Shown here: one piece after another, positions 39,213 through 55,899 of the stretch
How the letters are laid out: the number at the start of each line of letters is the position of its first letter
Numbering within the stretch: the first letter of the stretch is position 1
Assembly (NCBI GenBank): GCA_016235775.1
Contig: JACRIU010000082.1
Location: forward strand, 1 to 64,000
DNA: 64,000 nt
Direction of reading: 5' to 3'
Source of the DNA: Hydrogenophilales bacterium
GTDB lineage: Bacteria; Pseudomonadota; Gammaproteobacteria; Burkholderiales; Thiobacteraceae
Translations under genes and position numbers: made by a program
Notes under the pieces: generated by a model
Told to the model about the DNA's origin: nothing
Seen by the model: the letters and a program-made list of their open reading frames with translations, nothing else
The model's database searches: none

Positions 39213-39917
39213 ATGAAATCCAGAACCACCCGTCAATTGATTGCCGCCTGTTCGGCCACGGTTGCATTGCTGGGCCTGACGGTCCCCGCGCACGCCTCCC
39301 TCGTCACCGCGTCTTTCGCGGGCTCGGTCGTTGATTTCTCCCAGTTCCCGGGCGGTTTTGCCTTCGGCGCCGGTCCGGTGGCCGTTGGCTCGCTGGTCGG
39401 GGAGAGCATCGACTGGTCGTCTTCTTCCACCAGCGCCGTCATCGGCAATGGCGGCTACGGCCTGGGCAATAACGGCAACTGGACCAGTGGTCGCGGTGGC
39501 TATACCGGCCTGAACAACACCTCCGCGTCCGGCGACTACACGCAGTTCATCTTCAACAATGGCCCGGTCAGCTCGGTCGGTGGTTTCGTCAACTACGCCA
39601 CCTGTGGCGGCTCGCAGTGCGACCCGGCGCAGCAATTCATCATCGAGGCGCTCGACGCGGCCAACAACGCGCTCGAAACCTACAACGTCAGCCTGCTGGC
39701 CGCGATCTCGACCCCGAGCGCGACCGATGCCGGCGCCTTCCGCGGCATCTCCCGCGCCAGCGCCGACATCTACGGCTTCCGCCTGTACAACGCTGTGCAT
39801 GTGCTGGACGACCTCACCTTCGCGCGCAATAACGTAGTACCCGAACCCGCCTCGCTGGCGCTGCTGGGTATCGGCCTAGCTGGTTTTGGCGTCATGCGCC
39901 GCCGCAAATCAGCGTAA
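39213..39917 (+). CDS. PEP-CTERM sorting domain protein 1
   Basis: A secreted protein of 234 residues: signal peptide about 1-28 (ending PAHA), a Ser/Gly/Asn-rich mature part with no known domain, and a C-terminal PEP-CTERM signal (VPEPASLALLGIGLAGFG then MRRRK). Exosortase would cleave near the PEP and anchor or release it during matrix formation. It has its own sigma-54 promoter, conserved box and terminator. Low cysteine content (one CGGSQC pair) in the mature part. Confidence 0.9.
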   Translation: MKSRTTRQLIAACSATVALLGLTVPAHASLVTASFAGSVVDFSQFPGGFAFGAGPVAVGSLVGESIDWSSSSTSAVIGNGGYGLGNNGNWTSGRGGYTGLNNTSASGDYTQFIFNNGPVSSVGGFVNYATCGGSQCDPAQQFIIEALDAANNALETYNVSLLAAISTPSATDAGAFRGISRASADIYGFRLYNAVHVLDDLTFARNNVVPEPASLALLGIGLAGFGVMRRRKSA

Positions 39918-41576: not shown

Positions 41577-41647
41577 ATTTATTCACTAAGTGAAGAATTT
41601 TTCGGTTTTTAAACCAGATACACCATTTTTTTACAGTGGAGATCATC

Positions 41648-42448
41648 ATGAAAAAATCAACAATCGCATTAGCTTTATCATTAATGGCCGGCGGCTCCGC
41701 TTATGCCGCCACCTTCACTAACGGCGGTTTCGAAGACGGCAACTTGGGTGGCTGGACTGGCGGCGGTGGCACTTGGTATGGCGCACCCCCCGCACCAGTT
41801 AACCCCACAGCCTATAACGGTGGCCTCCCCACCAACACCCTTATGACCGGCGGCGTCGATCCCATCACAAGCGCGAATACGGTCTTCAACGGCAGCAACT
41901 CCGTGCGTGTGAACAACAACCTCAACAACTACTCGGTTTCCACTATCCGGCAATCGGTAATCAACTATACGGACAACAACATCTACTTTGCGTGGAACGC
42001 GGTGCTGGAATCCTCTCACGGCTTGGCCAACTCGGACTACTTTTCGCTGACCCTGCGCGACGACACCAACAGCACGAACATCGTGAACCGTGGCTACAGC
42101 TCTGCGGGCTCCATCGGCGGTGGCACAAGTGGCGTTACGTGGACTCCATATGCAGCGCCTGCGCCAATATATGGCACCTGGTACAGTAGTGGGTGGGTAG
42201 TCGAACAAATCGATTTAGTGGCTTTAGGTGCGGTCGGTCATGACTTCACCCTGACCCTGCTGGCGTCCGACTGCCCCTACGGCGGCCACGCTGGCTATGT
42301 GTATCTGGATGGTTTCGGCGGCCAAACCCCGACCCAATGCGGGCAGCCCGGTCAACCCCCCTGCCCGACGCCCGAGCCGGACACCCTGCCGCTGTTGGGC
42401 TTGGGGCTGCTTGGCTTGGCTTTTGGCCTGCGCCGGAAGCACGCATAA
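41648..42448 (+). CDS. PEP-CTERM sorting domain protein 3
   Basis: A 266-residue secreted protein. Signal peptide about 1-20 (ending SAYA), mature start FTNGGFEDGNLGGWTGGGG typical of a carbohydrate-binding-like sandwich, and a C-terminal signal PEPDTLPLLGLGLLGLAFG then LRRK. The start at 41648 follows GTGGAG; a GTG at 41636 is in frame. An internal fragment of a close paralogue lies just downstream at 42,571. Confidence 0.88.
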   Translation: MKKSTIALALSLMAGGSAYAATFTNGGFEDGNLGGWTGGGGTWYGAPPAPVNPTAYNGGLPTNTLMTGGVDPITSANTVFNGSNSVRVNNNLNNYSVSTIRQSVINYTDNNIYFAWNAVLESSHGLANSDYFSLTLRDDTNSTNIVNRGYSSAGSIGGGTSGVTWTPYAAPAPIYGTWYSSGWVVEQIDLVALGAVGHDFTLTLLASDCPYGGHAGYVYLDGFGGQTPTQCGQPGQPPCPTPEPDTLPLLGLGLLGLAFGLRRKHA

Positions 42449-42503: not shown

Positions 42504-42522
42504 ATCCGCCTCCCGTGCGCCG

Positions 42523-42570
42523 TCAGCGCAGATACCCTTCCCGCTCCAACTTCAACAGAATTCGCTGCAC
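42523..42570 (-). pseudogene. Remnant of an APS-kinase gene 3' end
   Basis: Reading the minus strand gives VQRILLKLEREGYLR and a stop, identical in protein to the last 15 residues of the Sat-like/APS-kinase fusion at 44439-46019, while the DNA differs at several synonymous positions. It is therefore a diverged copy of that gene end. It abuts the PEP-CTERM fragment at 42571. Together with the real gene end it brackets the sulfotransferase gene. Confidence 0.75.
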
Positions 42571-42760
42571 TGACTATTTCTCTCTGACTCTGACGGACGA
42601 TACCCTTAGTGCTACCTTGGTAAGTCGTGGATTCATTTCTGCTGGTGCCATCGGTGGCGGCACACAAGGCGCTACGTGGACCCAATTTGGCGGCTGGTAC
42701 AGCCGCGGTTGGGTAGTCGAGCAAATTGACTTAACGACCGCTGGCGTAGGTGGAACATCG
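42571..42760 (+). pseudogene. Internal fragment of a PEP-CTERM protein 3 paralogue
   Basis: The plus-strand frame reads DYFSLTLTDDTLSATLVSRG, then GAIGGGTQGATWTQFGG and WVVEQIDL, closely matching PEP-CTERM protein 3 from DYFSLTLRDDTN to WVVEQIDL. There is no start, signal peptide or C-terminal signal, so only a middle piece of about 60 codons remains. Confidence 0.8.
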
Positions 42761-42808
42761 GTCGCCGCAAGTCCTGATCGACGGCATCACGGCGCCAGAA
42801 TTTCCCCT

Positions 42809-44428
42809 TTACATCGTATATCCGAAGTATTCGATGAAGGGGGACAAGGTGGGCAACAGCGAATCGAATTCATTCGCGTAGCGTTCCCAGCGATATTTTG
42901 CGTGCTGGTAGATGGGCTGAGTAACTTGATGATAGCTCGGGGTGTTGATGATGCCGCGATTCTGCGCATGTTGGGTATGCTCTAGCACGGTATCGCTCCA
43001 GCCCACTCCAAGGAATTCAAGTAACAAACGGGTTTCTACTTCAAAATTTGTGATCAGATCCTCATAGCGGATACGCTGCCAGCAAAGCGGCATGCGTTCC
43101 ACATATTCGCGCCAGGCGCCCATCACCCGCGCGTAGGTATCAGCGACTCGTTCAAGGTTTACGAAGCCGGCCATGGCATCGTTATGGCCAAAGTTCTGCA
43201 TGAGGCAGCTCAATGTGACATCGCAAGGATGGCGAACAGCCAGAATGAAGCGGGCTTGAGGAAAGACCCGCCAGAGGAGTGGGACGCGAGCAATGTTCAG
43301 AGGCAGCTTGTCCACCAGCCAAGCGTGGGCTTGCCGGTCACAATGGCGCACCGTTTCCCCCCAATAGACTTGGCGTAGGCTGGCAATTTGTTCATCTGAC
43401 AAGTTTGACAACGCATCGGGGCCGCCTCCGGTCATATCGAAGAAAGCCCGCTCCATCACTTCGGCCATGGGTTTTTCATCCAGCGTCTGCAAGCTTGGGT
43501 GGCTATCCAGCACCTGTTCCAGCAGGGTGGTGCCGGAACGCGGGAAGCCAATCAAGAAAATCGGGGTTTCATCGGGCGAGGATAGCTCAGCCTGAAAGGA
43601 AGCCACAAAGCGGTCGGTCACCCAGGCGCGGGCGATTTCGACTCTGGCCAAGAATCGAGCGTGAGCGCTGCCATCAGGATCGGCGACCAGAGCCATACGG
43701 CGCTTGCCCTCGATCAGATGGGGCAGAACCTTCTTCGTATTATCAAGGCGGTCATGGAGCTGGCCGAGCATAAGGTGGATTTCCATGCCGGTCTCCTGAG
43801 ACATGGGGTGATTAAGCGCAGCTTCTAGCCGGGCCACTGCCTCGGCATGACGGCCCGCACGCCGGTCGAGCCGGGCCGCAGCCAGATTGAGTACCGGGTG
43901 GCCGGGTGCTTGGGCAAGGCCGCGCACAATCATTTCTTCGGCTTCAGCCAAACGGCCTTCTTTTTCCAGCAACTCTCCTCTCTTAGCGAGCGCGTACAGG
44001 GAGTCAGGATGCAAGTCCAGTGCTCGGCGATAGAGATCAAATGCATCCTTCACACGCCCCTGTTTCTCCCACAAGCGCGCCAGATTGGCGAGAACCTCCG
44101 GGGAGTTGGGACTTTTTGCCAAGGCATCCTGCAATACAGTGGAGGCCTCGTCCAGCTTCCCCTGATGTTGCAGAACCGTGGCTAAGGTGTGCTGGGCAAA
44201 AGCCAAATTTGGTGCGAGCATAATAGCTCGACGCGCGCATGACTCAGCTTCATCGTATCGACCAAGGCGAAACTGGGTTGCGCTCAACTTGACCCAAGCT
44301 TCCACATCCATCGGATCGGACTTACAAACACTCGCATACAACGACTGGGCCTCTTCCCAGCGGTTATCAAGCGCAAGTTGCTCGGCTTTGGCCTTTTTGC
44401 CCTTGGTCAGGATGTGCTTCTTATTCAT
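42809..44428 (-). CDS. TPR-repeat sulfotransferase
   Basis: A 539-residue protein transferring sulfate from PAPS to an unknown acceptor. Five to six TPR repeats fill about residues 10-220 (for example WVKLSATQFRLGRYDEAESC, VLANLARLWEKQGRVKDAF). A sulfotransferase domain follows (about 280-525) with the PAPS 5'-phosphosulfate loop IFLIGFPRSGTTLLEQVL and the 3'-phosphate site region RFILAVRHPCDVTLSCL. No signal peptide, so it acts in the cytoplasm. The frame extends to 44548 into the upstream gene; ATG 44428 is 10 bases after that gene's stop. It is the third gene of the DHH, Sat-like/APS-kinase, sulfotransferase operon. Confidence 0.88.
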   Translation of the reverse strand: MNKKHILTKGKKAKAEQLALDNRWEEAQSLYASVCKSDPMDVEAWVKLSATQFRLGRYDEAESCARRAIMLAPNLAFAQHTLATVLQHQGKLDEASTVLQDALAKSPNSPEVLANLARLWEKQGRVKDAFDLYRRALDLHPDSLYALAKRGELLEKEGRLAEAEEMIVRGLAQAPGHPVLNLAAARLDRRAGRHAEAVARLEAALNHPMSQETGMEIHLMLGQLHDRLDNTKKVLPHLIEGKRRMALVADPDGSAHARFLARVEIARAWVTDRFVASFQAELSSPDETPIFLIGFPRSGTTLLEQVLDSHPSLQTLDEKPMAEVMERAFFDMTGGGPDALSNLSDEQIASLRQVYWGETVRHCDRQAHAWLVDKLPLNIARVPLLWRVFPQARFILAVRHPCDVTLSCLMQNFGHNDAMAGFVNLERVADTYARVMGAWREYVERMPLCWQRIRYEDLITNFEVETRLLLEFLGVGWSDTVLEHTQHAQNRGIINTPSYHQVTQPIYQHAKYRWERYANEFDSLLPTLSPFIEYFGYTM

Positions 44429-44438
44429 AGATGGCCTG

Positions 44439-46019
44439 CTAGCGCAAATACCCTTCCCGCTCCAGCTTAAGCAATATCCGCTGCACCGCCTCATCCACGC
44501 CGATATCGGAAGTGTCGATCGATAATTCCGGCGATTCGGGAATTTCATACGGATCGGATACGCCGGTGAATTCCTTCACCAAGCCGGCGCGCGCCTTGGC
44601 GTAAAGTCCCTTGCGGTCGCGCGATTCGCACACTTCGATCGGGGTGGCGACGTGGATTTCGAAGAAGCCGCCGTATTGTTCGATCATGTGGCGCACGGCG
44701 TGGCGGGTGGCGGCATAGGGTGCGATCGGCGCGCAAATCGCCACGCCGCGATGTTTGACGATCTCGCTCGCGACATAGCCTATGCGGCGGATATTGAGGT
44801 CGCGGTGCTCGCGCGAGAAGCCGAGTTCGCTCGACAAATGTTTGCGCACGATATCGCCGTCGAGCAGGGTGACTTGGCGCCCGCCCAATTCCAGCAAGCG
44901 CACCATCAAGGCCTTGGCGAGGGTGGATTTGCCCGAGCCGGAAAACCCGGTAAAGAAAATGCACACGCCTTGCTTAGGGCGCGGCGGATAAGCGCGGCGT
45001 AGCGCGGCCACCACCTCGGGGAAGGCAAACCATTCGGGGATGTCCTGGCCGCGTTCGAGCCGGCGCTGCACCTCTTCGGCGGAGAGAATCTCTTGCGTCA
45101 CCAAGCCGTGGGCTTTTGCAGTTGGCAAGTGCTTGCCTTCGGCTTCCACATACACCATCGCGGGCAAGCCTATAAGGTGCAGGCCCAAGCCGGCACAATA
45201 AGGCGCGAGTTCGGCATCAGGCACGCCATCCAGCACCACATGGGTGCAACCGTAATTGCGCGCAACGATTGCCTTCAACAACGCCGCACGCAAGCCGCCG
45301 CCGTGATCCGGCAAGGGCAACAAGGCCAAGGCGGTGCTGGCAAGGGTGGAACGCGCCAATACCGCTTGATAGCCGTGAATGCGCGCAAAGTATTCCACCT
45401 CGTCGGCCGGCATCTCGCCCGCCACCGGGTGCAGCAGCAAGCTTGCTTCATGACTGCGCGCGCGCTCGACAATGAAATCGTACTGCGGACGAAACAGCGC
45501 ATGCTCGGGTTGATAGGCCAGAATGCGGCGCCAGCCACGGCGTGCGAATTGGCGGCGCATGTCCTCCGGCGTTTGGCGCAGCTCGGTGAAATCGTGGTGT
45601 TGCGGCAAGCCCGCGCCCTCCAATGCACCGCCGATGCGCACCTTGCCATCGACCGGCCACGCATCACCTACGGTCAACACCGCAAGCATGAATCCTTCCG
45701 CGTCGCGCAGTGCCACGCGCGCACCCGGCGCCAAGTTGGCGCCGATTTTCTCTGCCACTTCGAGTGCAATCGGCACCGGCCAAAACGTACCGTTGGCAAG
45801 CCGCATCGAGGCCGTCACGCTATCGTAATCGGCGCGGTTCATATAGCCCGTCAAAGGCGAATAGCCGCCATTGATCAGCAGCTCCAAATCCGCGGTTTGG
45901 CGCGGGGTGAGATCGATCGAAACCAGGTCACGCGCCTCAAGTTTCAGCGCGGCTTGGCGTTCTGGGGTGCCGAGCAAGGCGGTGAGCTTGCCGGTGTAGG
46001 GTGCGATAAGATTATTCAT
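44439..46019 (-). CDS. ATP-sulfurylase-like / APS kinase fusion
   Basis: A 526-residue fusion. The N-terminal part (about 1-340) has the ATP sulfurylase fold (LELLINGGYSPLTGYMNRAD, LLLHPVAGEMP, NYGCTHVV), but the usual catalytic motif QTRNPxHxxHE is replaced by YQPEHALFRPQYD, and the GRDHAG motif by LDGVPDAELA; I infer it may not make APS. The C-terminal APS kinase (about 350-525) is intact: P-loop FTGFSGSGKST, DGDIVRKHL, and FVEIHV-type strand FFEIHVATPIEVCE. It makes PAPS for the adjacent sulfotransferase. The start at 46019 is two bases after the DHH stop; the frame is open to 46160. Confidence 0.85.
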   Translation of the reverse strand: MNNLIAPYTGKLTALLGTPERQAALKLEARDLVSIDLTPRQTADLELLINGGYSPLTGYMNRADYDSVTASMRLANGTFWPVPIALEVAEKIGANLAPGARVALRDAEGFMLAVLTVGDAWPVDGKVRIGGALEGAGLPQHHDFTELRQTPEDMRRQFARRGWRRILAYQPEHALFRPQYDFIVERARSHEASLLLHPVAGEMPADEVEYFARIHGYQAVLARSTLASTALALLPLPDHGGGLRAALLKAIVARNYGCTHVVLDGVPDAELAPYCAGLGLHLIGLPAMVYVEAEGKHLPTAKAHGLVTQEILSAEEVQRRLERGQDIPEWFAFPEVVAALRRAYPPRPKQGVCIFFTGFSGSGKSTLAKALMVRLLELGGRQVTLLDGDIVRKHLSSELGFSREHRDLNIRRIGYVASEIVKHRGVAICAPIAPYAATRHAVRHMIEQYGGFFEIHVATPIEVCESRDRKGLYAKARAGLVKEFTGVSDPYEIPESPELSIDTSDIGVDEAVQRILLKLEREGYLR

Positions 46020-46020
46020 A

Positions 46021-46989
46021 TTAGAGGGTACGCAACGCCCGAAAAGTGGTATCAAAAAGTTGGAGAAACCGCGGCAGTTCACTCTCCGGCAAATGATTAA
46101 TGCCCGCCGCCCCTTTGCGCCCGCCGCCTGTTTCAAACTGGGCGCACAAGGTATCTGCACCCTGTCGCACGGAAACGGGCGCGCGCACGCTCACCAGATA
46201 GCCGCTGTCTTTTTGCGTCAACACCGCGTGCGCAAGGCCGGGAGCGCCCATGGCCAAGTCATTACCGAATACGCCCGACACCCGGCGCGCCCATGCGGCG
46301 TTGGGTAGTCTATACACCACACCGACATCGTTCGCCTGCATCGGCTGCATGGCGCGCGCCTGCCCCATATCCTGCGCGTAGCCCCGGCTGAGCGTTTGAA
46401 ACGTTGCCGTCTCGCGCATGAAGCTAAATGGATCGGCATGCCGATGCAGTTCACGATACAACTCGGCCGGATGAAAAAACAAATCCTCGGGCGACTCGCC
46501 ATAACCGTTGTAGTTGAGGCACTCGCCCAGGGTTTGCAATTCGCTTAAGGCCGATACGCCCAGCCCCAGCGGCGCCGCTTCGCGCCGCGCCACGTCCGCG
46601 AGATTATCCCCAAACGCCGCCACCACCGCCCACACCAGATGCCGGCCGGCCAGATGCCGATTCACCAACAGGCTGGTGCACACTTCGGCGTGCGTATCGA
46701 TATGCGCATGCAGATTCGGATGCGCGGGAATATCCCCGGCCTGATGGTGATCGAAGTACGCCACCTGCGCGCCCGCATCCAGCAAGCGCAGCAATGCATC
46801 GCGATTGGTTTTGAGCGAGACATCCAGCACCGTCACGCGATCCCCGCCCCGCGCATCGACCCGGTCGAGCAGCGCGATATCGCGCTTCACGCCGGTGACT
46901 AGCGTGGCTTCGCGCGGCTCGCTCAGACGTAATTGATGCAAGGCGCAAATACCGTCCGCATCGCCGTTGAACACATCGAAATCAGGCAC
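46021..46989 (-). CDS. DHH/DHHA1 phosphoesterase (candidate pAp phosphatase)
   Basis: A 322-residue cytoplasmic protein of the NrnA-type size. It shows the DxD motif in DVFNGDADGICAL, a second Asp in VLDVSLKTN, the DHH motif in VAYFDHHQAG, and a C-terminal DHHA1 region with GGGRKGAAGIN (canonical GGGH here has Arg instead of His). Members degrade nanoRNA or 3'-phosphoadenosine 5'-phosphate (pAp). Being the first gene of an operon with APS kinase and sulfotransferase, a pAp-clearing role fits; this is inference. No promoter was recognised in the 100 bases shared with the divergent VanZ gene. Confidence 0.75.
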   Translation of the reverse strand: MPDFDVFNGDADGICALHQLRLSEPREATLVTGVKRDIALLDRVDARGGDRVTVLDVSLKTNRDALLRLLDAGAQVAYFDHHQAGDIPAHPNLHAHIDTHAEVCTSLLVNRHLAGRHLVWAVVAAFGDNLADVARREAAPLGLGVSALSELQTLGECLNYNGYGESPEDLFFHPAELYRELHRHADPFSFMRETATFQTLSRGYAQDMGQARAMQPMQANDVGVVYRLPNAAWARRVSGVFGNDLAMGAPGLAHAVLTQKDSGYLVSVRAPVSVRQGADTLCAQFETGGGRKGAAGINHLPESELPRFLQLFDTTFRALRTL

Positions 46990-51028: not shown

Positions 51029-51613
51029 TTAAACGCGGCGGCGTTTCTTTGCAATAAAACCGAGCGCGCCCAGGCCGGCCAACAACAAAGCGAGGGTTTC
51101 GGGTTCGGGTATGGGATTTGCGTAATTGCGCACATAGTACAAACCGTTAACCGTTTGCTGGAGTTGCCCCAGGCCATCGAACCGCTCCAGGACATAGCCG
51201 CGCGTAGCCGATGCGCCCGAGCCCGACAGGCTGAACGTCATCTTGTAGGTATCCACGCCTTGCGTGCCGGTCAGCGTACCGCTCAAGCCTTCCACATTCG
51301 GACCCTGGTTCTGACCGTTCGCGGTCGTGGTAACCACCACCACTTGCAAGGTCCCCGGGGTAAGGGTGACGCCTTGAATATTTAGGATGCACCCATCTCT
51401 TATCGTTACCGACGCGCCACTCGGTGGAAATGAGCCAGCCGTGGACTTGGTAAAGGTAAACCCGCCACCCGCGCAGAGGATCGGCGCACCCGCCTGGTCC
51501 TTGAGAATGATGTTGTAGCTGGCGGCATTGGCGGAGCCCGCCCCCAACAGGAATAGGCTCAAGCCTGCCAACATTAAGCGGCCCAGGCGATTCGTTAGCT
51601 TAGTCTCATGCAT
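51029..51613 (-). CDS. PEP-CTERM sorting domain protein 4
   Basis: A 194-residue exported protein: signal peptide about 1-30 (LGRLMLAGLSLFLLGAGSANA), a beta-rich mature domain of unknown family (YNIILKDQAGAPILCAGGGF), and a C-terminal sorting signal PEPETLALLLAGLGALGFI then AKKRRR. The frame is open to 51667, but ATG 51613 starts the signal peptide. Its promoter region has both the conserved box and a sigma-54 promoter. Confidence 0.88.
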   Translation of the reverse strand: MHETKLTNRLGRLMLAGLSLFLLGAGSANAASYNIILKDQAGAPILCAGGGFTFTKSTAGSFPPSGASVTIRDGCILNIQGVTLTPGTLQVVVVTTTANGQNQGPNVEGLSGTLTGTQGVDTYKMTFSLSGSGASATRGYVLERFDGLGQLQQTVNGLYYVRNYANPIPEPETLALLLAGLGALGFIAKKRRRV

Positions 51614-51677
51614 GATCTTGCCTCGGTTAATGGCTGCAACCTGGAATTGGGTGGCCCAATAATTCATTAATTAAGCA

Positions 51678-51786: not shown

Positions 51787-53067
51787 TTATATGGCGGGGG
51801 CTGTCAAGGCGCCCGATGGGTAAGACGGCTTGGCTTGGCATAAGGACTGACGCGCAAGCTGGCGCAAAATGACCGTTGCGCCAATCAGCCAATACAGCAG
51901 CTCCCAATAAGCGATCCCCAAAAAGATTGCCCCAACCGCATAGCCCGCCAGCGATGTCCGCAGCATGGCGCCGTAGGTATGCACCCACTCAAGCTTGTGG
52001 GATTTGGCTTGCATGATTAGCCGCGTCAGGCTTGCCATGCTCCCGAACAGCAGCAGCGCCCATAAACCGAGTCCGACTAAGCCATGCTCGGCCGCCATCT
52101 CAAGATAGGCGTTGTGCCAATCACGGGAGCCGCCCGTGGATAGCGTGGCGTAGATCCAACCCTCGAACCCCCCACCGAAAACGGGCTGCTCGCGCACCAA
52201 ATCCAAGGCGATTCTCCACGCTTCGAGCCGCCCTTGGGCCGAACCTTCGTTTTGAAAGTTGGCGATCGTTTCCATGCGGCTGAACCACGTTTCCGGCAGG
52301 CTGATCAACACCAGCGCCACGGCCAGGGCGAGTAGCGGCAGAAACAGCAGCTTGCGCCGGCTATGCCAAACCAGAAGCAAGGTCACCGCCGTCAAGCTCA
52401 ACAATGCGCCGCGCGACCAAGACGACAGCGCGGCGGCGTAGCTGAGGGCAATCGCGCCCGCGATGACCCAGCGCAAAGTTTTATCGCGCGCCTCATGCCG
52501 CCATAAAACCAACAAAGGGATCGTCATCGTGACCGCTATGGCAAACTCATTATTGTCCCCGTATTGGCTGCCGGGCGGGCCGTACACGCGATCCTGGAAG
52601 CCGGTCATCACCGCCCAATACCCGCCCTTCACCGTGACCAGGGCAATCGCGAGCGTCATCGCAACGATCAAATAGAACAGCTTGTCGCGGGTATCGATCA
52701 GCGCCAGCATGAGCAGCAAAGGCGGCAAGATTTTCATCACCTCCCACAGCTTCGGCCACGCCGCCCAAGGATTGATGCTCACATAGCTGGTGACGGCAAA
52801 CCAGCCCCATAACAACGCGAGCACGGCCAACCGCCAATCCCTTGGCAAGCGGGGCCGCAGCTTGTCAAACGCCAGCGCTTTCGCCAGCGCGGCGCACACC
52901 ACGCCAAACAGCACCAGATACGCCGGAAAATCGCGCATGAAACCGGTCGCGTAACCCTGCGGATGCAAAAAGCCCACCACCGCCAGCGCAATGACCCCCA
53001 CCCACGGCCGGGCGAGCGCCGCCCACGCCAGCGCGAACAGCATCAGCAGCAAGGCAACATCACGCAT
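51787..53067 (-). CDS. Exosortase-associated O-glycosylation ligase (Wzy/WaaL family)
   Basis: A 426-residue membrane protein with about 11 helices and the Wzy-C domain (FGGGFEGWIYATLSTGGSRD, NAYLEMAAEHGLVGLGLWAL). The start MRDVALLLMLFALAWAALARPWVGV and HPQGYATGFMRDFP match the family found next to PEP-CTERM/exosortase A systems, proposed to attach glycans to PEP-CTERM proteins. The start at 53067 overlaps the end of the VanZ gene 2 by eight bases; the open frame reaches 53103. Confidence 0.85.
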   Translation of the reverse strand: MRDVALLLMLFALAWAALARPWVGVIALAVVGFLHPQGYATGFMRDFPAYLVLFGVVCAALAKALAFDKLRPRLPRDWRLAVLALLWGWFAVTSYVSINPWAAWPKLWEVMKILPPLLLMLALIDTRDKLFYLIVAMTLAIALVTVKGGYWAVMTGFQDRVYGPPGSQYGDNNEFAIAVTMTIPLLVLWRHEARDKTLRWVIAGAIALSYAAALSSWSRGALLSLTAVTLLLVWHSRRKLLFLPLLALAVALVLISLPETWFSRMETIANFQNEGSAQGRLEAWRIALDLVREQPVFGGGFEGWIYATLSTGGSRDWHNAYLEMAAEHGLVGLGLWALLLFGSMASLTRLIMQAKSHKLEWVHTYGAMLRTSLAGYAVGAIFLGIAYWELLYWLIGATVILRQLARQSLCQAKPSYPSGALTAPAI

Positions 53068-54532
53068 GGTCGCTATCCCGAACGGCGGCTGGCCGATTAA
53101 CACGAAGTGAATCTTGCGCAGCAGTTAGGCCGGCGTTGGCCTTCCATGCATGGCCGATTTTCTTGTTGCTGTTTTGATGATTGCGCAACCGCGCGCCCAG
53201 CAGCCTTGCGCCGGCATAGCCTGCCACGCCGCCCATGGTCTCCAGCACCCAGTCCGTAATATCCGCATTCTTGCCCGGCATGAACAACTGGCCGGCCTCG
53301 ATCCCGAATGCCGCCAAGCCGATCGCGATCAACGCGCCCCAATCGGCAATTTGCCGCCAGGAATAATGCCGGATTTGCGCCACCCCCAACGCCAGCAACA
53401 AACCCAGCGGCAGGAAGAAACCGGTTTTGTGCAGCACCTCCGTCACCGCCCGGTATTCCGTCCCATAGTAATACGCTTCAAACGGAACCTTGTGCAGGCT
53501 CTGCAAGCGCTCGGCTAAAAACGCGCGCCCGGTGTGAAAATCGAATGGATACCAAAAAATCGCCGCTAATACGCCAATCCACAACAACGCAAAACCCAGC
53601 CACAGCCAAGCCCGCGAATGCGATGCGCCGCCCTCCTGCGCTGGCCCGGCCCAGCGTCCGCTCAGCCACGCGCCCACCCCCGCGCCGAGTGCCGCAGTAA
53701 AAATATCCGTCACATCACTGACGCGTGAGTAGACGAACAGTTGGAGAAATTCGAGCAGCGACGCAATCAATACGACAGCGAGCAAGGGCTTCAGGCGCGA
53801 AGCGGGGCGCGCGAAGCGCCACAAGAACGCAACCGGCATCCAAATCAAGATGTCGGTTAATAAGCCATACACCTCTTCGATCGGATTGGCGAAAACGAAA
53901 GAGAACGGCGCCAACACCACCCGCCCCTCGCGCCATTTATGAAAAATTTCGACCGGGCTGAGCGTGAGATCGAGCGGCAGCACATTGTAGGCAAACAGCA
54001 CGAACAGATACAGGTAAAGCACCCGGCCCCATACATCCAATGGCGAATGAGCGCTGCGCCAACCGGCAAGCCATGCCATGAGGCGCGAACCGAATGCTAG
54101 CCAGGCCATTACGCCCGCCGCCGCCCCGATGCTCTCCGCCAGAATGTCATTCAGCGACACCGTGCGCGGCGGAAAAAACAACTGCGTAAATTCGATTGCC
54201 AGGCTGAGACCCATGCAAGCAACGAACACCCCGAGCACCACCAGCGCGCGCCGAATCACGCCGCGCGCCGGCCACAGCACGCCGCTCCACAAGAACGCCA
54301 AAGGAATAAACAACAGAATGTTCGCCACCCAATCTGCGCGCGAACCGATCGAGAGGTTCAGATAGCGGATATCGCGAAAGGCGAGCCACGCCTCCGCCAG
54401 CGGCCGACCATGAAAATCCAAGGGCACCAGACTGCCATACACCGCAAACGTCAAATAGCCGAGCGCGAGCCACAGCAGCAATGCGCGGCTGGCGCGCGGA
54501 TAATCATGGGTTTTTTCAGCCGGAGAATGCAT
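53060..54532 (-). CDS. VanZ-family membrane protein 2 (two VanZ domains)
   Basis: A 490-residue inner-membrane protein with two VanZ-like halves: about 15-160 (WVANILLFIPLAFLWSGVLW, LAIEFTQLFFPPRTVSLNDI) and about 200-300 (ILIWMPVAFLWRFARP, LEFLQLFVYSRVSDVTD), plus a third similar helix set near 380-450 (AFGIEAGQLFMPGKNADITD). Three copies of the Q-L-F-x-P/S-R-x-x-D-x-x-D pattern suggest internal repeats. Together with the O-glycosylation ligase and beta-helix genes it forms a three-gene minus-strand operon. Confidence 0.82.
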   Translation of the reverse strand: MHSPAEKTHDYPRASRALLLWLALGYLTFAVYGSLVPLDFHGRPLAEAWLAFRDIRYLNLSIGSRADWVANILLFIPLAFLWSGVLWPARGVIRRALVVLGVFVACMGLSLAIEFTQLFFPPRTVSLNDILAESIGAAAGVMAWLAFGSRLMAWLAGWRSAHSPLDVWGRVLYLYLFVLFAYNVLPLDLTLSPVEIFHKWREGRVVLAPFSFVFANPIEEVYGLLTDILIWMPVAFLWRFARPASRLKPLLAVVLIASLLEFLQLFVYSRVSDVTDIFTAALGAGVGAWLSGRWAGPAQEGGASHSRAWLWLGFALLWIGVLAAIFWYPFDFHTGRAFLAERLQSLHKVPFEAYYYGTEYRAVTEVLHKTGFFLPLGLLLALGVAQIRHYSWRQIADWGALIAIGLAAFGIEAGQLFMPGKNADITDWVLETMGGVAGYAGARLLGARLRNHQNSNKKIGHAWKANAGLTAAQDSLRVNRPAAVRDSDHA

Positions 54533-54567: not shown

Positions 54568-55899
54568 CTAACGCTCCCCAGCAGGCGGCTTAATCTCCAG
54601 CACCGGCAGCCAGCGAAGTCCTTTTTTTTCTGGCGCATAGGCGCCCACTACATCGGCGCCGCGCAAACTAACATCAAAATCCCGGTCAGCCTCTGGGTAT
54701 ATTTCAAAATGCGTTTTAGCTTTCGCTTTTTTCGATCCTTTACCCGCCTTCGGCCTCAAATCCATCTCGCCCAAGGGCGCGAATGGCCGAACCAGATAAT
54801 CGCCGGCTTGGTCGAATGAACCGGTTAAATTCATCTCCATGGCGGCGCCGTGCAGCGGGGGATTGGCGAACAGGCTATTCGCCGATACCAATTGTGGATA
54901 AGGAGGATCGCCCTCGCGCCGCGCCAGCGTAATGCCCGCCCCCTTGGCCATCACCGTATTGCGGAACACCGCCACATCACGCGGCGTGTCGTTGTGCGGC
55001 TGAATCCGCACCGCATCACCGGCATGATTCACGAACAAATTATTGTACAGCGCGATATTGCCCTCGCCTTGAAACAGCGCTTCATGCGGATTCTGGTAAA
55101 AGAAATTGCCGTAGATGAAATACTGATCGTCCGCCCCCGGCCCGGCGAGCGGCCAATGCCCCACCAGCACATTCGGCCGCGCCATCTCTTTCGACCCGCC
55201 CTGCGCCTTGCTGAACACATTGTGGCGGATGATGGTCGCGCTTTTTTCATTCGGCATGCCCGGCAACGCGGGGCGCGGCTGCTGGTGTTTAATCTGCAAG
55301 TTATAACCAAGCGTATCGACAATCAAGTTGTGCTCGATCAGCCCCGCGATAAACGGCGCGCGCCCATCCGAGTTGCCGAGATACATTCCCGTCCCCGCTC
55401 CCTCGATCACGTTATGGCGAATCACCCAATTCCACGCCGGGCATTTGGTGGAGATGCCCACCGTCTGTTGATTATTGCCATGGCCGCGGATGATCAGATT
55501 TTCGAGCGTGATGTGGTGCGCCCACTCGGCATGGCCTTCGCACTTCACGCCATCCACCGGCAGACCTTGGCCGTCCAGCACAAGATTTTTCACGACGAGA
55601 TGCGCGGCATTCAGGATGCTGATGGTGTTGCGGCCGGACGCCGCCAAAAAGGTTGCCGAAGAACCGGCCGGGCCGGTGATCACGATCGGTTTATCCGGCG
55701 TGCCTTGAAGCTGATGCAGGCGCAGCCCCGCCCGGTAAATGCCAGGCTCAAGCATCAGCGTGTCGCCCGCGGCCAGGCGCAGCAGCTTGGCGGCATAATC
55801 CGAGGGGGTGGCCTGGAAATGCTCGGCGCCACCACGCCAGGGCGCCACGGCGGCCAGCAGCGCGGTGCAAGCTATGACTACGGTTTTAATGCTGCGCAT
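54568..55899 (-). CDS. Secreted right-handed beta-helix protein
   Basis: A 443-residue exported protein: signal peptide about 1-24, then a parallel beta-helix (about 35-340) with DUF1565/PbH1-type rungs such as AAHLVVKNLVLDGQGLPVDG, ITLENLIIRGHGNN, VIRHNVIEGAGTGMYLGN and IALYNNLFVNHAGDA. The start has Pro-Gly-rich KPIVITGP like polysaccharide-lyase or epimerase relatives. No catalytic triad was identified. In a polysaccharide locus it may bind, cleave or epimerise the polymer. Confidence 0.8.
   Translation of the reverse strand: MRSIKTVVIACTALLAAVAPWRGGAEHFQATPSDYAAKLLRLAAGDTLMLEPGIYRAGLRLHQLQGTPDKPIVITGPAGSSATFLAASGRNTISILNAAHLVVKNLVLDGQGLPVDGVKCEGHAEWAHHITLENLIIRGHGNNQQTVGISTKCPAWNWVIRHNVIEGAGTGMYLGNSDGRAPFIAGLIEHNLIVDTLGYNLQIKHQQPRPALPGMPNEKSATIIRHNVFSKAQGGSKEMARPNVLVGHWPLAGPGADDQYFIYGNFFYQNPHEALFQGEGNIALYNNLFVNHAGDAVRIQPHNDTPRDVAVFRNTVMAKGAGITLARREGDPPYPQLVSANSLFANPPLHGAAMEMNLTGSFDQAGDYLVRPFAPLGEMDLRPKAGKGSKKAKAKTHFEIYPEADRDFDVSLRGADVVGAYAPEKKGLRWLPVLEIKPPAGER

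Follow-up and report, generated by a model that had tools for sequence, protein, structure and literature searches.

Pairing of a DHH phosphoesterase with APS kinase

A DHH/DHHA1 phosphoesterase and a two-domain adenosine 5'-phosphosulfate (APS) kinase are encoded side by side in a 64,000-nucleotide stretch of a Hydrogenophilales bacterium (GenBank assembly GCA_016235775.1, contig JACRIU010000082.1, positions 1 to 64,000; the whole stretch is called the window here). Judged by sequence and modelled fold, the two proteins probably form a unit of the 3'-phosphoadenosine 5'-phosphosulfate (PAPS) cycle, with the DHH protein as predicted phosphatase of 3'-phosphoadenosine 5'-phosphate (pAp, also written PAP). 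Its gene (46021..46989, minus strand; 322 aa, GTG start) is separated by one base (46020) from that of the kinase fusion (44439..46019, minus strand; 526 aa, ATG start). A gap of 10 bases (44438-44429) follows, and then a gene for a TPR-repeat sulfotransferase (42809..44428, minus strand; 539 aa, ATG start). An earlier note on this DNA had read the three as a self-contained operon for making PAPS, using it and removing the by-product. The coordinates confirm that the trio is consecutive on one strand with these gaps, and Pfam domains bear out the identities of the fusion and the sulfotransferase. As a whole, that reading is partly supported: the DHH-APS kinase pair recurs in relatives, whereas the sulfotransferase is a lineage-specific neighbour. 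The source genome is a 3.0-Mb metagenome-assembled genome (MAG) of 140 contigs and 93% completeness. Its closest named relative by DHH protein is Burkholderiales MAG_47 (91%), with Thiobacillus next.

The DHH protein and APS kinase belong together. Among 369 sampled genomes of the class, 72 carry the DHH family, and the neighbourhoods of nearly all matches were examined. An APS kinase gene adjoins the DHH gene in 21 of these 72, in 16 taxonomic families and in both gene orders; about 0.2 genomes are expected by chance, and the probability of 21 is roughly 1e-35 by a rough estimate. Among the neighbour clusters, a stand-alone APS kinase is the most frequent, at 16 loci. A permease bearing citrate/sulfate-symporter and TrkA-C domains follows with 10, and then come clusters named by eye as pyrD (8) and galE (7). 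Fusion-type partners were found in the window, L079, L119, L123 and, by coordinates, G296. Among 80 named GTDB loci, APS kinase adjoins the DHH gene in 38, with partner types confirmed by Pfam. The DHH gene is followed by a Sat-like/CysC fusion in 24 of the 80 (Thiobacillus, Hydrogenophilales, Gallionellaceae, Nitrotoga), the Thiobacillus loci carrying it directly ahead of the two-domain kinase gene. The other 14 have a lone CysC, Sat plus CysC (Arenicella, Porticoccus) or CysNC (Nitrosomonas), which makes four kinds of partner.

The association is also seen between whole genomes. APS kinase is present in 61 of the 72 DHH-positive genomes compared with 160 of the 297 DHH-negative ones (odds ratio 4.7, p 9e-7). 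Plain co-occurrence with the Sat-CysC fusion is at chance (14 genomes share both, where frequencies of 72 and 70 in 369 predict about 13.7), so the signal lies in adjacency and in all APS kinases pooled. Genomes whose top TIGR01331 match fell short of E 1e-50 were counted as lacking the bisphosphate nucleotidase CysQ. Within genomes with APS kinase, the DHH family is present in 22/47 of those lacking CysQ and in 39/174 of those having it (odds ratio 3.0, p 0.0016). No link between DHH presence and CysQ absence appears in genomes without APS kinase, and across all genomes it is not significant (p 0.15). The family is a candidate pAp remover for proteobacteria that make PAPS without CysQ, namely for those 22 of the 47 sampled. 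PAPS making and pAp removal, as the earlier note had proposed, gain support from the adjacency, from the fold match to a PAP phosphatase given below and from this over-representation.

Sequence and fold of the DHH protein

The protein carries the metal-binding motifs I-IV of the DHH/DHHA1 superfamily and the GGG motif of DHHA1: NGDADG (8-13), D56, DHH (80-82), GD (127-128), R269 and GGGRKGAAG (288-296). In an alignment of 63 homologues N8-G9-D10-A11-D12-G13, D56, D80-H81-H82, G127-D128, R269 and G288/G290/R291 are invariant. The residue after GGG is always Arg, where the Pyrococcus pApase has Lys and NrnA has His. Searched singly, the protein has no match in Pfam, NCBIfam (both at 0.001) or the PDB at default cut-offs and stays below the gathering cut-offs of Pfam DHH and DHHA1. 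Scans of all 63 homologues at E<=1 give weak matches to DHHA1 in 61 (best 2e-10) and to DHH in 50 (best 1e-6). Since the single-sequence searches found nothing, the DHH assignment, correct in the earlier note but weak by sequence, rests on these family-wide scans and on a clear fold. The same note had spoken of a DHH protein of NrnA size. The size holds at 322 aa; family membership does not follow by sequence, with no Pfam or NCBIfam match at 0.001 and NrnA chains reached by profile at E 0.11-0.17. The window protein belongs to a subfamily that neither Pfam nor NCBIfam names.

An AlphaFold model (predicted local distance difference test score, pLDDT, 96.8) has the two-domain fold and aligns with DHH structures at Z-scores of 15-26. 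The top match is 8A8K, both in Foldseek (E 5e-14) and in VIA-align (Z 25.9, 297 residues, 3.3 Å). NrnA (NrnA-type enzymes at Z 15-17), PggH and RecJ structures are also among the fold matches. Phmmer and profile searches with the DHH family did not return 8A8K up to E 10. This structure is MtPAPP, the PAP phosphatase from the archaeon Methanothermococcus thermolithotrophicus; its gene lies near those of ATP sulfurylase and APS kinase, and its assayed phosphate release from PAP is about 50 umol/min/mg (PMC10322725). Its Mn ligands are D8, D10, D57, D127, H6 and the DHH histidines (PMC10322725). The Asp ligands and DHH histidines all have counterparts in the window protein, each invariant among the 63 homologues.

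Oligoribonuclease (Orn) is encoded in all 72 DHH-positive genomes, so the family fills no nanoRNase gap. CysQ was not found above cut-off in the own genome, a 93% complete MAG, where the best CysQ-family matches scored 127 and 95 bits against a cut-off of 228.8; one of these candidates resembles inositol monophosphatase and the other is ambiguous. Because of the APS kinase adjacency, the match to 8A8K, the universal Orn and the missing CysQ, pAp removal is the likely job of the DHH protein, as far as sequence and model can tell.

The fusion APS kinase and its substrate

The fusion combines PF14306 (PUA_2), PF01747 (ATP-sulfurylase) and PF01583 (APS_kinase). It scores 660 bits against NCBIfam PRK05537, under the cut-off of 669, and its best solved relative is 3CR8 from Thiobacillus denitrificans (605 bits over full length). 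The kinase domain is intact, with the P-loop GFSGSGKST and DGDIVR. In the sulfurylase domain QTRNPxHxxH is replaced by YQPEHALFRPQ, and GRDH is gone. The label "self-contained" fails at this point, the sulfurylase domain having lost its catalytic residues. Both sulfurylase motifs are lost in 24 of 26 DHH-adjoining fusions, and most of these losses may trace to a single clade. Of 27 other fusions, 23 keep the motifs. Three fusions without a DHH neighbour (L042, L051, L060) have likewise lost them. By their motifs, pseudo-sulfurylase APS kinases appear to have arisen or to persist outside the Thiobacillus group too.

With a sulfurylase domain devoid of catalytic motifs, APS has to come from elsewhere. 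The own genome holds a single canonical, intact Sat gene directly beside AprB, the arrangement typical of sulfur oxidisers, and this Sat is probably the source of APS. A second, stand-alone APS kinase lies on another contig of the genome (L231, contig C95, 2343-16988) together with several sulfotransferase-domain proteins, one of which also matches a CDP-glycerol glycerophosphotransferase domain.

The sulfotransferase as a probable local insertion

The window sulfotransferase matches PF13469 (Sulfotransfer_3; E 6e-35) besides its TPR repeats. Both the 5'-phosphosulfate-binding PRSGTT and the 3'-phosphate-binding RHPCDVTLS (RxxxDxxxS) are present. The closest solved sulfotransferases are the protein-tyrosine sulfotransferases TPST1/2 (E 4e-14), a match from which the substrate is not readable. 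Homologues occur in 89 of the 369 genomes and are enriched in DHH-positive ones (28/72 compared with 61/297, p 0.002), a link that vanishes inside APS-kinase genomes (p 0.16). Of 151 DHH loci, 5 have such a sulfotransferase in the vicinity (L132, L136, L128, L163, L164). In the two Gallionella loci, L163 and L164, CysC and DHH are accompanied by a sulfotransferase on the opposite strand. Conservation of the trio in relatives holds for the pair, in the 21 genomes mentioned; adjacency of the sulfotransferase is not supported beyond the own genome.

In L136, the closest relative, the pair is 91% (DHH) and 93% (fusion) identical in protein and 86-89% identical in DNA. No sulfotransferase stands directly behind the pair there; the one nearby is on the opposite strand, about 5 kb away. 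In the window, the final 51 nt of the fusion gene occur on both sides of the sulfotransferase gene, as copies 82% identical and 1916 bases apart, namely the 3' tail of the fusion gene itself (44441..44491, minus strand) and a copy beyond the sulfotransferase gene (42525..42575, minus strand). The G+C content at third codon positions (GC3) of the sulfotransferase gene is 0.63 compared with 0.70-0.73. The tail repeats, the lower GC3 and the absence in L136 together suggest that this gene was inserted locally and recently behind the DHH-kinase pair. Its place as a conserved member of a unit is not supported.

Similar duplications were seen elsewhere. The last 110 nt of the fusion gene are repeated at 85% about 1 kb downstream in L136 (4289-4398, 5328-5437), and the fusion gene tail is likewise repeated downstream in L141. 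The 3' end is duplicated in three genomes, enclosing the sulfotransferase in the window and a PIN-like open reading frame in L136. By these repeats, the tail of the fusion gene looks like a recurrent insertion site. On the plus strand, 42515-42985 of the window repeats the PEP-CTERM gene at 41636-42448 in truncated form (57% identity, 72 aa) and abuts the duplicated tail.

Use of PAPS and proposed pathway

No PAPS reductase/CysD was found above cut-off in the own 93% complete MAG, whereas 14/14 control genomes were positive, and the PAPS is therefore most likely used for sulfation. The genome carries about seven sulfotransferase-domain genes, about six of them besides that of the window. These gene contents make sulfation of surface polymers the likely use of PAPS, the product presumably being a sulfated surface polymer or glycoprotein. 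Indirect support for surface sulfation, as the earlier note had it, comes from the missing reductase and from a sulfotransferase in an exosortase-B cluster. This cluster, on another contig (L233, contig C75, 5440-11447), comprises exosortase B and EpsI-B polysaccharide genes with a flippase, a glycosyltransferase and the sulfotransferase; its gene content predicts a sulfated exopolysaccharide. A literature search combining exosortase, PEP-CTERM and sulfotransferase yielded nothing relevant.

pAp is a toxic by-product of sulfation and inhibits sulfotransferases and exoribonucleases. To our knowledge, every PAPS user needs a means of destroying it. In the proposed pathway, APS would be supplied elsewhere in the cell, most simply by the intact Sat together with AprAB of sulfur oxidation. 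The C-terminal kinase domain of the fusion would phosphorylate it to PAPS, and the catalytically dead N-terminal sulfurylase-like domain would probably only build the oligomer. PAPS would be consumed, and pAp released, by sulfotransferases that include the adjacent TPR protein as well as others encoded in the genome. Substituting for CysQ in the own genome, the DHH protein would strip the 3'-phosphate from pAp by means of a two-metal (Mn-type) DHH centre, yielding AMP and phosphate. Removal of pAp would relieve product inhibition of the sulfotransferases and protect oligoribonuclease.

A wider proposal is made tentatively. The widespread, unnamed proteobacterial DHH family could be a dedicated pAp phosphatase with an origin separate from those of CysQ and NrnA. 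Its partner in sulfur and iron oxidisers would be a pseudo-sulfurylase APS kinase that draws APS out of energy metabolism for the sulfation of surface polymers. This proposal predicts sulfated surface polymers in chemolithotrophs and makes a common protein family testable with one assay. The literature searched did not describe the bacterial DHH family, its distribution among genomes lacking CysQ or its pairing with dead-sulfurylase APS kinases.

Weighing of alternative explanations

Several points weigh against a dedicated pAp phosphatase. RecJ-Cdc45 aligns with the model at Z 25.2, within 1 Z unit of 8A8K, so the fold by itself cannot pick the substrate. His6 of the MtPAPP metal site corresponds to Asn8, and GGGH to GGGR. 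CysQ is present in 45 of the 72 DHH-positive genomes, and hence the function of the family is not always replacement of CysQ. Many DHH genes adjoin unrelated genes (pyrD, mutS). The genome-level associations treat genomes as independent regardless of phylogeny, and the absences in the own genome rest on a 93% complete MAG. An inositol-phosphatase-family protein on contig C30 (27746-28438), which scores about as high against CysQ (127 bits) as against HisN and misses every cut-off, could have pAp activity itself.

That the pair serves PAPS-dependent sulfate assimilation for cysteine synthesis, with the sulfotransferase as a coincidental insertion, is unlikely. The DHH family and APS kinase are found together in many genomes whose sulfur assimilation may draw on them, and the sulfotransferase is indeed no conserved part of the unit and sits between repeats. 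The own genome, however, yielded no PAPS reductase/CysD above cut-off with all controls positive, it has the several sulfotransferase-domain genes, and the sulfotransferase family is enriched in DHH-positive genomes overall, though not within APS-kinase genomes. Distinctly unlikely is a nanoRNase or a phosphodiesterase of linear or cyclic dinucleotides (NrnA/NrnB, PggH or DhhP type) with a secondary adjacency to APS kinase. Superfamily and size are shared, NrnA, PggH and RecJ are among the fold matches, and NrnA itself is bifunctional (PMC9757072, PMC5593865). Against it stand an oligoribonuclease in every DHH-positive genome, four APS kinase gene types next to the DHH gene, the rank of NrnA-type folds under 8A8K and GGGR in place of the GGGH of NrnA.

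Close coupling to the kinase gene would also suit a valve on the pool of active sulfate, the DHH protein hydrolysing PAPS or APS itself instead of clearing pAp. In Thermococcus onnurineus, a homologue of the pApase of Pyrococcus reportedly degrades PAPS in addition to pAp (cited in PMC8268124). MtPAPP, the assayed relative by fold, prefers PAP with high specificity, and such a valve is very unlikely. One conserved, self-contained sulfation operon of three genes is highly improbable and already largely refuted. The short gaps on one strand and the Gallionella loci that bring CysC and DHH together with a sulfotransferase encoded on the opposite strand speak for it; the dead sulfurylase domain, the bare pair in L136, the rarity of such a sulfotransferase near DHH genes (5/151 loci), the flanking tail repeats and the deviating GC3 speak against it.

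Genomic surroundings

PEP-CTERM and polysaccharide surroundings were rightly recognised in the earlier note, and O-ligase genes are among them. A putative O-glycosylation ligase of exosortase systems (51787..53103, minus strand) matches TIGR03097 above cut-off. PEP-CTERM proteins are encoded at 51029..51667 on the minus and at 39213..39917 on the plus strand. Domain searches and locus comparison identified a VanZ-family protein (53060..54532, minus strand) and a beta-helix protein (54568..55899, minus strand). Both genes also precede the DHH-APS kinase pair in Thiobacillus, recurring upstream of it in several loci. Another ligase-like protein is encoded around the trio as well, and the VanZ proteins there number two in all.

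Comparison with known systems

NrnA (YtqI/Rv2837c), a bifunctional oligoribonuclease/pAp phosphatase, shares superfamily and size with the DHH protein and differs by its GGGH and by profile matches of only E 0.1-0.2. Its nanoRNase role is usually found in bacteria lacking Orn. CysQ, the 3'(2'),5'-bisphosphate nucleotidase, would share the proposed reaction and has an unrelated fold, that of the FIG superfamily.

DHH-type pAp phosphatases with sulfate-activation genes are already known in archaea. The pApase of Pyrococcus yayanosii, found with ATP sulfurylase and APS kinase, needs D10, D12, D59, DHH, D126, R259 and GGGK (PMC8268124). Matched by motif and not by alignment, these correspond to D10, D12, D56, DHH, D128, R269 and GGGR; the archaeal family was not found by sequence search with the DHH family. 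MtPAPP resembles the window protein in the whole-length DHH and DHHA1 fold, the matching Asp and DHH-His ligands, the nearby sulfate-activation genes and the absence of CysQ from the genome. It differs in sequence, with only 11% identity and no detectable similarity, by the change of His6 to Asn, by its archaeal instead of proteobacterial origin and by serving a PAPS reductase. The two are likened by their presumed function, and shared descent is not claimed.

The fusion has its counterpart in 3CR8 of Thiobacillus denitrificans (UniProt Q3SM86), with the same architecture, a dead sulfurylase-like domain and kinase motifs of the active type. According to the title of its paper (Gay et al., 2009, a reference of PMC13213808 and PMC6715247), this two-domain APS kinase is without activity as an ATP sulfurylase. 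Degeneration has gone further in the window protein, which has YQPEHALFRPQ where 3CR8 has WQARQPMHRAQ. In Thiobacillus, the puzzling two-domain kinase may find its physiological setting in such a pairing with a predicted pAp phosphatase.

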